Of a stretch of DNA of 64,000 nt, positions 2,525-5,475 are shown one piece after another. Position 1 is the stretch's first letter; every line of letters begins with the position of its first letter. Made by a program: the position numbers and the translations under genes. This DNA is from Fervidobacterium pennivorans DSM 9078 (GTDB lineage: Bacteria > Thermotogota > Thermotogae > Thermotogales > Fervidobacteriaceae). The notes beneath the pieces are model-generated. The model searched no databases. It worked only from the letters and a program-made list of their open reading frames with translations, and was not told where the DNA came from. Where the stretch lies: the NCBI RefSeq assembly GCF_000235405.2, contig NC_017095.1:1947501-2011500 (forward strand), written 5' to 3'.

Positions 2525-2593
2525 TCTGGTAGTCTATAATAGGAGTTAAAAGATTCAGAGTTACAGAGAAGCTTCCTCATACCAGTACCCCCA

Positions 2594-2630
2594 CCCCCTT
2601 GGACTTATAAGTGCCAAGGGGGTTAATTTT
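2594..2630 (+). terminator. Rho-independent terminator after glnA
   Basis: Nine-base-pair arms CCCCCTTGG and CCAAGGGGG enclose a further ACTT/AAGT pairing, with one bulged G. A T-rich run (TTAATTTT) follows. It lies about 70 bp past the glnA stop. Confidence 0.85.
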
Positions 2631-2640
2631 AAGATATTAC

Positions 2641-2668
2641 TTGACAAAACTCAATATTGATATATAAT
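2641..2668 (+). promoter_or_regulatory. Consensus sigma-A promoter of the PadR/NifX-like unit
   Basis: A perfect TTGACA and a perfect TATAAT are separated by 16 bp, directly after the glnA terminator and about 50 bp before the regulator gene. It is among the best promoter matches in the window. Such a strong promoter would normally need a repressor, and the first gene downstream encodes one. Confidence 0.8.
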
Positions 2669-2717
2669 CAGTAACGACAAATATGGAGTCAGGTAGTTGA
2701 GGAAGGGAATGTGATAA

Positions 2718-3098
2718 ATGAGGAGAAAATGTGCATGTCAGCATCGTGGTGAAGGACATCATGGACCTCATATATGTGAGCAAATAGGTTTTTCCGTGGG
2801 AGATTATCTTACGGCGGTTATATTGAAAGAGCTCTCAAAGAAACCCATGCATGGTTACGAATTATACGATAAAATATCGCAAGCGGAATATTATCCATTC
2901 AAACATGACCAAAGTGTTATATACAGTTTGTTAAGAAAGCTAAATGCTCATGGGTTGGTGAGTTATTCACTCCAGGAAGGAAACGGTGGGTTGAGGAAAG
3001 TTTACGAAATAACAGAAGAAGGTCTTAAATATTTGGAGCAGTTGGTGGAATACATATCAAGACTAAAGCAAGCGTTTGATTTGTTTTTGAATGCTTGA
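2718..3098 (+). CDS. PadR-family transcriptional regulator with Cys/His-rich N-terminus
   Basis: The protein has 126 residues. From about residue 25 it is a PadR winged helix: a DYLTAVILKELSKKPMHGYEL core (helices and the conserved HGYEL), then SVIYSLLRKL and a wing ending RKVYEITEEG, followed by a C-terminal helix. This family usually represses neighbouring genes. Upstream of the winged helix is an unusual stretch with C5, C7, H9, H14, H15, H18 and C20, which could bind a metal ion. The ATG is preceded by GGAAGGG. The gene is 43 bp ahead of a histidine-rich NifX-like gene and shares its promoter and terminator. I infer that the pair responds to or handles a metal. The family call is firm; the metal-sensing role is inference. 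Confidence 0.85.
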   Translation: MRRKCACQHRGEGHHGPHICEQIGFSVGDYLTAVILKELSKKPMHGYELYDKISQAEYYPFKHDQSVIYSLLRKLNAHGLVSYSLQEGNGGLRKVYEITEEGLKYLEQLVEYISRLKQAFDLFLNA

Positions 3099-3141
3099 AA
3101 AAATTGGCAACTAAAAATCATACTTGAAGGAGGTGTTGGGT

Positions 3142-3591
3142 ATGAAAATTGCGATTCCTACGGACGATGGAAGAACGGTGGCAAGTCACTTTGGAAGTGC
3201 TGAATATTTTATGATAGTCGAATTTGAAGATGGAAAAGAAATATCCAGAAGACTCTCAGAAAATCTTCATGCAAGAGGACATGGACATCATGGTTATCAC
3301 GAACATTACGAAGGACATGGATATGGACATGGTTGGCATCACGGTAATCACGGCTATGGTGGAGGTTATCATCACGGCTATGGTGAAGGTCATCGCCACG
3401 GGCATGAAGAGGTATTTGCCTCGACCGGAGAGATTCAAGCAGTTATTGCTGTTAGGATAGGACCACACATGTTTGAGGATTTGAAAGAGAGAGGTATAGG
3501 AATTTACTTGGTTCGACCAGGAACGAGTATAGATGAAGCAATTGCAAAATTTACTGCAGGAGAATTGAGAAAAATAGAACCAAGAAAGTAA
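3142..3591 (+). CDS. NifX/NifB-type (dinitrogenase Fe-Mo cofactor domain) protein with a large His-rich insertion
   Basis: The 149-residue protein starts MKIAIPTDDGRTVASHFGSA, the hallmark of the NifX/NafY-like cofactor-binding fold. It ends with the matching half: a V-I-A-V-R-I-GPHM strand, then LKERGIGIYLV. The two halves are split by about 50 residues of mostly Gly, His and Tyr, with some 16 histidines in HGHH, WHHG and YHHG patterns. The start at 3142 was chosen over an upstream in-frame TTG because GAAGGAGGTG ends 5 bp before it. Small proteins of this family bind iron-sulfur or molybdenum clusters. The insertion suggests storage or buffering of Ni, Zn, Co or Cu. No nif genes are nearby, so a nitrogenase role is unlikely here. 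It is cotranscribed with the PadR gene. Confidence 0.82.
   Translation: MKIAIPTDDGRTVASHFGSAEYFMIVEFEDGKEISRRLSENLHARGHGHHGYHEHYEGHGYGHGWHHGNHGYGGGYHHGYGEGHRHGHEEVFASTGEIQAVIAVRIGPHMFEDLKERGIGIYLVRPGTSIDEAIAKFTAGELRKIEPRK
3349..3385 (+). repeat. In-frame 13-bp repeat inside the His-rich insertion
   Basis: CACGGCTATGGTG occurs at 3349-3361 and again at 3373-3385, offset by 24 bp. The offset equals eight codons, so the insertion seems to have grown by in-frame duplication of a HGYG unit. Confidence 0.8.
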
Positions 3592-3612: not shown

Positions 3613-3644
3613 AAACCGGCGCTTTAAAGGCGTCGGTTTTATTG
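3613..3644 (+). terminator. Rho-independent terminator after the NifX-like gene
   Basis: The arms AAACCGGCGC and GGCGTCGGTTT pair with one G-T wobble around a short TTTAAA loop. A T-rich run (TTTTATTGTTT) follows. Confidence 0.85.
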
Positions 3645-3720: not shown

Positions 3721-4710
3721 TTGCGAGTTTTCCTATTTTTGCAAGTGATTGCACTCATTATCTTCGTATATACAATGTATTTCTTACCTTCAAATTTGTA
3801 TTTTATCTCTATCGTATCTGTGTTTGTCATAGTGAACACGGTTGGTTTGACTTATTATGTTTTCCGAACTTGGTGGAAGGAAATTCGTAATTCTGGGCAA
3901 TTAACTAAGGTTTTTTACTTCACGTTATTGGTTACTGCAATTGTCGCTGTGCTCTTTTTATTTTCGAACATATTCAGAATGTGGGTTTACAGGTATACAG
4001 AAGATTCGCTTGTGAATTTTTCAAACTCGTTACTTGCTATTTCTACCTTTCTTTTAGTTTCGTTTGGTGTGTCTTATCTAACTTTGAAAAGAGAACTTGA
4101 AAAGCAGATTCAGGAATATGAAAAGCTAAGAACTGTCCAGCAAAGACTGAGCATCCAGGTTGTTAGATACAAAACAAATCCACATTTTCTCTTCAATTCG
4201 TTGAGCACAGCAATTTCGATGTTGGACTTACGAGTGGAAAGAGAGAAGATTAGAGAGTATTTGTCAAACCTCGCAGAGCTCTTCAGGGTTGTGTTGAATG
4301 CGTCCGAAGTCTGGACATTAAAAGATGAACTAGAACTTACCAAACGCTATCTTGAGATACAAAAAGTTAGAGTGGAAGGTCTTGAGTACGAAATTACTAT
4401 GGGCCCAGCATGTGAGACGGTGAAAATTCCTTCTTTGGTTTTGCAACCAATAGTAGAAAATTCCGTGGTTCATGGAATAGCGAAATCGAAAAACGGCGGG
4501 AAGATAAAATTAGAATGTACGAAAGTTAATGGGACTGTTACAATAAAGGTTAGTGATAATGGTAAAGGTGCGGAGAAAATAATTCCAGGAACAGGTTTAA
4601 AGCTTGTTCAAGAATTGATGAATGCATTTTCACGAAAAGTGGAACTACATTTTGAATCTTCTCCGGAAAGTGGAACGATTGTTACTCTTTCCTGGGAAGA
4701 TATTGGGTAA
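3721..4710 (+). CDS. LytS/YehU-type membrane sensor histidine kinase
   Basis: The protein has 329 residues. The first 120 hold about four hydrophobic membrane segments and no obvious extracellular sensor domain. A short coiled stretch follows. The His_kinase domain has the phosphoacceptor His155 in TNPHFLFNSL. The ATP-binding part has QPIVENSVVHG (N box) and VSDNGKG followed by GTGLKLV (G boxes). This is the LytS class, which lacks a classical HisKA dimerisation domain. The start is TTG at the front of the frame, preceded by AGAGGTGA. It is 30 bp ahead of a LytTR response regulator, so the two almost certainly form a cognate pair. The signal is unknown; cell-envelope state or small metabolites are typical for this class. 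Confidence 0.9.
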   Translation: MRVFLFLQVIALIIFVYTMYFLPSNLYFISIVSVFVIVNTVGLTYYVFRTWWKEIRNSGQLTKVFYFTLLVTAIVAVLFLFSNIFRMWVYRYTEDSLVNFSNSLLAISTFLLVSFGVSYLTLKRELEKQIQEYEKLRTVQQRLSIQVVRYKTNPHFLFNSLSTAISMLDLRVEREKIREYLSNLAELFRVVLNASEVWTLKDELELTKRYLEIQKVRVEGLEYEITMGPACETVKIPSLVLQPIVENSVVHGIAKSKNGGKIKLECTKVNGTVTIKVSDNGKGAEKIIPGTGLKLVQELMNAFSRKVELHFESSPESGTIVTLSWEDIG

Positions 4711-4740
4711 CTTAGGAAAAGTTCTTCAAGGGGGGAGTTC

Positions 4741-5475
4741 ATGACCTGCGTTATTGTTGAAGATGAAAAACTTTTGGCAATGGTTTTGGAAAAAATGGTA
4801 AAAGAAGAAGGATTAGAAGTGCTTGGTATTGCCAAGGATGCAGAAGAAGCGATAAGAATGATAGATGAGAAAAAACCTGAGATAGTTTTTCTTGATATAA
4901 ACCTTGGGGAACACGACGGATTCTACGTGCTCCAACATATCAATCACAAACCTTACGTGATATTCACAACCGCCTATTCTGAGTATGCGGTAAAGGCTTT
5001 TGAAGAAAATGCAGTGGATTATCTTTTAAAACCAATAAAAAAGGAAAGGTTGCACGAAGCTATTGAGAAGGTTAGAAAGTTGAGCACTTTTGAAAGAGCG
5101 AATCTATACGATAACATTCAAAGAGTAAAGGACTTAGCGCAAAGATTAAAAGCTGACAAGTTCATTGTGGAAATCGGTGATGAAATAGTTTTTCTAAATG
5201 TTGACGAGATAATCTTTCTAACATCGGAAAAAGGCGAGACGGTTGTTGTTACAAAGAACGAAAAGATGAAGACAAAAATCCCACTTAAAGATTGTGAGAT
5301 TAAGTTGCCTTACGAAAGGTTCCTAAGAGTGCACAAGTCGTATATCGTTAATGTTGAGAAGATAAGAAAGATTATCCGAAATTATTTTGGTTCGTTAGCT
5401 CTTGAACTCTCTAATGGAGATATTATTCCTGTAGGAAGAAATTACAAAGATTCTATAAAAAAACTGCTCGAATAA
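4741..5475 (+). CDS. LytTR-family response regulator
   Basis: The protein has 244 residues. The receiver domain (1-120) has acidic residues E7 and D8, the phosphoacceptor Asp52 in VFLDINLG, and Lys in YLLKPIK. The C-terminal LytTR DNA-binding domain (about 140-244) has the typical core FLRVHKSYIVNVEKI. An SD of AAGGGGGGAG precedes the ATG. LytTR proteins bind pairs of short direct repeats ahead of target genes. I did not see such a pair immediately before the kinase gene. The stop codon lies inside the loop of a bidirectional terminator. Confidence 0.92.
   Translation: MTCVIVEDEKLLAMVLEKMVKEEGLEVLGIAKDAEEAIRMIDEKKPEIVFLDINLGEHDGFYVLQHINHKPYVIFTTAYSEYAVKAFEENAVDYLLKPIKKERLHEAIEKVRKLSTFERANLYDNIQRVKDLAQRLKADKFIVEIGDEIVFLNVDEIIFLTSEKGETVVVTKNEKMKTKIPLKDCEIKLPYERFLRVHKSYIVNVEKIRKIIRNYFGSLALELSNGDIIPVGRNYKDSIKKLLE

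Follow-up and report, generated by a model that had tools for sequence, protein, structure and literature searches.

A PadR-family repressor paired with an IssA-like PF02579 protein in Fervidobacterium pennivorans: a possible iron-sulfur storage circuit

A two-gene unit in Fervidobacterium pennivorans DSM 9078 encodes a PadR-family repressor with a Cys/His-rich N-terminal tail and a PF02579 protein whose domain is interrupted by a Gly/His-rich loop (Table 1). We put at about even the chance that this unit is an autoregulated, IssA-like iron-sulfur store or buffer for which the tailed PadR protein serves as the sensor. The storage and sensing of iron-sulfur species in anaerobes are poorly known, with IssA as the one characterised example, and the locus offers a defined putative operator, regulator and regulon in culturable thermophiles. 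It also suggests a role for DUF5320 proteins, and it may present a natural swap between an Arg/Gly tail protein acting in trans and a His/Gly loop acting in cis.

Table 1. Features of the PadR-PF02579 unit, numbered from the first nucleotide of the window (the whole 64,000-nucleotide stretch of DNA that was analysed)
Feature	Position	Strand	Evidence
Terminator hairpin of upstream glnA; upstream border of the unit	~2593..2623	+	RNA fold -21.4 kcal/mol, z -3.6
Sigma-70 promoter, TTGACA-16-TATAAT	2641..2668	+	12/12 match; kept in relatives
Putative PadR operator, CTCAATATTGATATATAATCAGTAACGAC	2650..2678	+	Kept in 8 promoters; matrix test; single exact genomic site
PadR-family repressor, 126 aa	2718..3098	+	PF03551, E 7e-14
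N-terminal Cys/His tail, residues 1-24	2718..2789	+	C5, C7, H18 and C20 invariant in clade
PF02579 (Nitro_FeMo-Co) IssA-like protein, 149 aa	3142..3591	+	E 5e-17; best solved relative MTH1175
Gly/His-rich loop within PF02579 domain, residues 45-87	3274..3402	+	37% Gly, 33% His, 16% aromatic
Intrinsic terminator of the unit	3613..3639	+	Fold z -4.2

The two genes and their proteins

The PadR and PF02579 genes form a unit bounded by a perfect sigma-70 promoter and by terminators, much as a preliminary description had it: both reading frames and their coordinates, the consensus promoter, the unit's own terminator and the numbering of the tail residues (C5, C7, H9, H14, H15, H18 and C20) all proved correct. 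The second reading frame was listed with a TTG start at 3124 (155 aa), and the alternative ATG at 3142 (149 aa) is more probable as the start, given that a Shine-Dalgarno sequence falls within the longer form. The promoter is the sole 12/12 match in the region scanned. Because promoter-like matches there occur overall at chance level (7 vs 6.3), it gains its weight from its conservation in relatives. Downstream of the terminator lies a pair of genes (3721-5475) for a histidine kinase, at 3721, and a LytTR response regulator. An Rfam search of the whole window returned nothing at gathering scores.

The F. pennivorans genome is a single contig of 2,166,381 bp. Five genomes of the genus, this one included, carry the PadR gene, with the PF02579 gene next to it in each, and four carry neither gene, two of these four being at least 97% complete. 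The same pair is found in both genomes of another genus (g2) of the family. Because the two genes are kept or missing jointly throughout the genus, their pairing is beyond chance.

The tail residues listed above all precede the PF03551 domain, which spans residues 35-107 of the PadR protein (52 bits against a cut-off of 27) and is the ordinary winged helix that had been recognised from the start. An AlphaFold2 model (pLDDT 88) predicts this winged helix followed by a C-terminal helix at residues 100-125. The signature tyrosines of the PadR-2 wHTH (PMC6457526), Y47 (in HGYEL) and Y69, are invariant in our alignment. Among the tails of seven Fervidobacterium-clade PadR proteins from genomes with the pair, M1, R2, R3, C5, C7, H18 and C20 are invariant, H9 occurs in six and H14 and H15 are not conserved. 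Since C5, C7, H18 and C20 are kept in all seven relatives despite indels and length changes around them, their presence is beyond chance. The proposal that both proteins carry extra metal-ligand residues is supported by conservation for these four residues and for the His loop of the second protein, and not for H14 and H15.

The PF02579 match falls into two stretches separated by the 43-residue Gly/His loop, and 16 of the protein's 18 His residues lie at residues 43-88. The split, His-rich NifX-type fold reported earlier is thereby confirmed, and each of the seven clade proteins has such a loop (36-54 residues, 19-38% His). The label "NifX-like" is apt at the level of the PF02579 domain and goes too far beyond it: the NCBIfam search with this protein gave no NifX-specific match and only weak MrpORP and partial NifB matches. 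The closest match among solved structures is MTH1175.

The putative operator and the age of the circuit

Alignment of the upstream DNA revealed a palindromic block around the -10 box with the consensus ATCAnTAnTGATATATAATCAnTAnTGAT, composed of 12-bp units with a 17-bp period. In F. pennivorans two such units (2650-2661 and 2667-2678), each an imperfect palindrome of the type nTCAnTAnTGAn, flank and overlap the -10 box, and several relatives have a third unit across the -35 box. The exact site occurs once in the F. pennivorans genome and matches with two mismatches are at control level, so that the unit appears to be self-contained, as had been proposed. For the same reason, further regulon members in this genome were rejected as candidates.

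An operator matrix trained on six clade promoters was run on 566 kb from other genera with a cut-off of at least 12 bits. It identified 18 distinct sites, 17 of which lie ahead of PF02579, DUF5320 or PadR genes at a distance of up to 150 bp, in loci that were picked for carrying such genes, which makes nearby sites likelier, and in which such upstream stretches make up an estimated few percent of the DNA. Shuffled versions of the 566 kb gave 3-7 sites in total. Across 20 whole genomes of the family, chosen regardless of their genes, each of the five sites without a mismatch is on target, and the one in G018 lies upstream of a DUF5320 operon. Six one-mismatch sites in the family are off target, within or beside unrelated genes, and look like chance. 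In the rest of the family, then, the operator precedes PF02579 genes and DUF5320 operons, which we assign to the putative regulon by motif only.

PF02579-paired PadR proteins of other subfamilies have distinct palindromes of their own, likewise situated between the -35 and -10 boxes: these are of the ATGTACATATGTATGTATAAT type in families f5 and f7 and of the GCACATANATGTGC type in f2. Autoregulation with co-evolving sites would be expected to leave such subfamily-specific palindromes at a shared position. Regulation of the unit through its palindromic operator is a well-supported prediction. The f7 operon encodes PadR, a 4Fe-4S protein, the PF02579 protein and two half-size ArsP_1 permeases, and that of f5 is without the 4Fe-4S protein; this PadR-PF02579-ArsP_1 operon is kept, with its putative operator in the promoter, at L046, L047, L079-L083 and L086.

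The pairing extends across the phylum. Among 81 Thermotogota genomes we found 98 PadR matches, and 31 of them have a PF02579 gene within 1.2 kb, where chance adjacency is estimated at about 0.003 per PadR. The paired PadR proteins cluster together in a PadR tree. Those of the Fervidobacterium clade, to which the full CxC...HxC motif is limited, are sister to Thermosipho-like PadR proteins with RG tails, and that of G011 branches just outside. The G011 operon (PadR - DUF5320 - DUF5320 - PF02579) has the same operator, its PadR protein has no tail Cys and its PF02579 protein has no His loop. Because G011 keeps the operator and the pair without these residues, the pairing and the operator must be older than the Cys/His residues. 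The clade version is, judged from these comparisons, a lineage-specific variant of an older control circuit.

These results bear on the earlier idea that the pairing is tied to the Cys/His motif. A tail Cys is enriched among paired PadR proteins (22 of 31 versus 9 of 67 unpaired ones, counts that ignore relatedness); the full motif is confined to one clade and the pairing is wider. G011 and the phylum-wide adjacency count in part against the motif as what defines the system, and not against the motif as a sensor of metal. None of 79 loci with PadR relatives outside Thermotogota has a PF02579 gene nearby, a weak result given that the loci were picked by winged-helix similarity. Cys/His-rich PadR tails are seen there in Desulfotomaculum copahuensis and Candidatus Sysuiplasma (L116:4977-5387 and L117:4971-5357) with other neighbours; the L116 gene adjoins OsmC-like and probable chromate-transporter genes.

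Proposed mechanism and likely cargo

DUF5320 genes are present in nine of nine genomes of other genera and in none of 11 from the Fervidobacterium clade. The DUF5320-b proteins are mostly 31-33% Gly, 18-22% aromatic and 13-21% Arg/Lys with a pI of 10.5-11.8, one having 16% Gly. In the disordered tail of IssA, which has a pI of 10.7, Gly accounts for 15, aromatic residues for 14 and cationic ones for 7 of 70 residues (PMC5524996), and most DUF5320-b proteins are nearly alike in composition. Given the absence of DUF5320, this similarity to the IssA tail and the gain of the loop, we propose that the tail has moved from trans to cis. The DUF5320 loss and the His-loop gain are one evolutionary event, so that the idea of the loop taking the place of DUF5320 amounts to a correlation.

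In the mechanism that we favor, PadR would repress both its own gene and the PF02579 gene by binding at the -10 box, on the palindromic operator. The globular PF02579 domain would hold iron-sulfur species, as does IssA in Pyrococcus, while a disordered Gly/aromatic segment might wrap or solubilise them. Related genera would supply this segment in trans through co-regulated Gly/Arg/aromatic DUF5320 proteins, and the Fervidobacterium clade would have built it into the PF02579 loop with His replacing Arg. An ample supply of iron and sulfide (or of another thiophilic metal) might lead the CxC...HxC tail to bind metal or Fe-S, causing PadR to leave the operator. PF02579 protein made from the derepressed operon would then capture the cargo, after which the circuit would reset. 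The operator, the regulon, the domain families, the conserved ligands and the DUF5320 loss are the parts of this explanation supported by sequence comparison; the iron-sulfur cargo, the repression and the sensing by the PadR tail are what we infer. One point against this mechanism is that Cys-tailed PadR proteins also exist without PF02579 neighbours (the 9 of 67 noted above, and L116).

The preliminary description had favored Ni, Co or Zn as the cargo. An iron-sulfur cargo is likelier because relatives have iron-sulfur gene neighbours, because the PF02579 protein is akin to IssA, and because the F. pennivorans genome yielded no large subunit of a NiFe hydrogenase; Ni, Co or Zn as first choice was accordingly ranked below it. 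Nor was a NifDK-type protein (PF00148) found in this genome, so that a nitrogenase role was rejected. At two Thermosipho-like loci (L302 and L303), DUF5320, two Fer4-containing nucleotide-binding ATPase genes and two PF02579 genes are grouped in what is likely an iron-sulfur assembly or storage operon. The ATPases are of the Fer4-bearing type that was assigned to CbiA/NUBPL in G074.

We consider it unlikely, though likelier than the other alternatives, that the two proteins are a sensor and a buffer for a divalent metal (Zn, Ni, Co or Cu), with the His loop as chelator and the Cys/His tail as sensor. The His content of the loop across the clade is typical of Ni/Zn buffers, and CxC...HxC is a plausible Zn site. 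However, those PF02579 relatives whose function is known deal with Fe-S or FeMo clusters, and the genes that neighbour the regulon in other genomes are for iron-sulfur and for iron/oxygen stress. The unit also has no metal transporter, and the genome gave no NiFe hydrogenase large subunit, as noted above.

Some of those neighbours recall oxygen stress. At L039-L043, operator-bearing DUF5320 operons are near desulfoferrodoxin, ferritin, flavodiiron, Fur-family and peroxiredoxin genes, with the gene for an RG-tailed PadR close by. In some relatives desulfoferrodoxin directly precedes the DUF5320 operon, ferritin and flavodiiron genes lie just upstream and a Fur-family regulator is nearby. Such an arrangement would suit a thiol/redox switch, in which the tail Cys residues would respond to oxidants or to sulfide/persulfide, with the PF02579 protein as a trap for iron under oxygen stress, and a single tail Cys does recur among other paired PadR proteins. 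We nevertheless consider this switch improbable, as the Thermosipho-like PadR orthologue near the oxygen-stress genes has no tail Cys and the conserved H18 suggests metal ligation. Least probable is that the tail is a mere DNA-contacting or disordered extension, with a small molecule as ligand at the dimer interface of PadR, the case known from LftR, and with neutral drift as the origin of the His loop: the tail is mostly disordered in the AlphaFold2 model (pLDDT 52-58 at residues 1-20), related PadR proteins have basic RG tails and LftR DNA binding uses K9, near the N-terminus (PMC6457526), but C5, C7, H18 and C20 are invariant even though the tail varies in length.

A further speculation concerns the PadR tail. 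RG tails accompany RG-rich DUF5320 proteins in the Thermosipho-like group, and Cys/His tails accompany the His-loop PF02579 protein here. Perhaps the PadR tail mimics the low-complexity segment of the protein under its control, so that the two share a cargo and the repressor can probe the content of the store. In G030 (L048:5624-6242), a PadR protein with the tail VKANCGCCHW has a perfect GCACATATGTGC palindrome in its promoter. The next gene there encodes an 81-aa protein (MCCCGCCCFHCCCCHCCCCKHHGRGHH...) that has a metallothionein-like Cys/His run, a helical C-terminus and no significant Pfam match, and the genome has no PF02579. G030 would be a second, apparently separate case of tail mimicry. 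The PadR tails of G028, G032, G034 and G038 have His, and three of them also Cys, and the genes nearby are for MarR and ABC transporters and not for PF02579, which argues against mimicry as a general rule. With one further case and these counter-cases, we assign tail mimicry a low probability.

Relation to known systems

A search of open-licence papers found no link between PadR and PF02579 and no paper on DUF5320 function, and the nearest known systems each share a part of the unit. The nitrogenase cofactor chaperones NifX and NafY have the PF02579 domain in common with it, and differ in the NifX-specific NCBIfam match and the PF00148 partner that are missing here. The MrpORP (Mrp/NBP35-ORP) iron-sulfur carriers resemble it in that relatives of the locus bring PF02579 together with Fer4-bearing ATPases of the CbiA/NUBPL type, but the present operon has no such ATPase, and the MrpORP model matches residues 1-37 only of the PF02579 protein (31.8 bits, cut-off 450).

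On the regulatory side, PadR-2 repressors such as LftR (PMC6457526) share the short winged helix with a C-terminal helix, the signature tyrosines and a partly palindromic operator at their own promoter, which is putative here. They differ from the present repressor in its extra Cys/His tail and in its partner, a PF02579 protein rather than a drug pump.

The closest likeness is to IssA, the thioferrate storage protein of Pyrococcus furiosus (PF2025; PMC5524996) and the only member of PF02579 for which a storage function is known. The two share the globular domain (IPR003731 = PF02579), a low-complexity Gly/aromatic segment and an anaerobic thermophile as host, and the best solved match of the present protein, MTH1175, is a member of the IssA clade as placed by the same study (PMC5524996). 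They differ in that the IssA tail is C-terminal and cationic with a high pI, whereas the loop here is internal, rich in His and not Arg, and part of a protein with a pI of 6.4, a contrast that counts against the favored reading. The present protein, which is likened to IssA from its sequence, also differs in lying under putative PadR control. Both proteins of the unit thus belong to known families, and an IssA-like protein under predicted PadR control, with a clade-specific tail and a His loop, appears to be a new combination.
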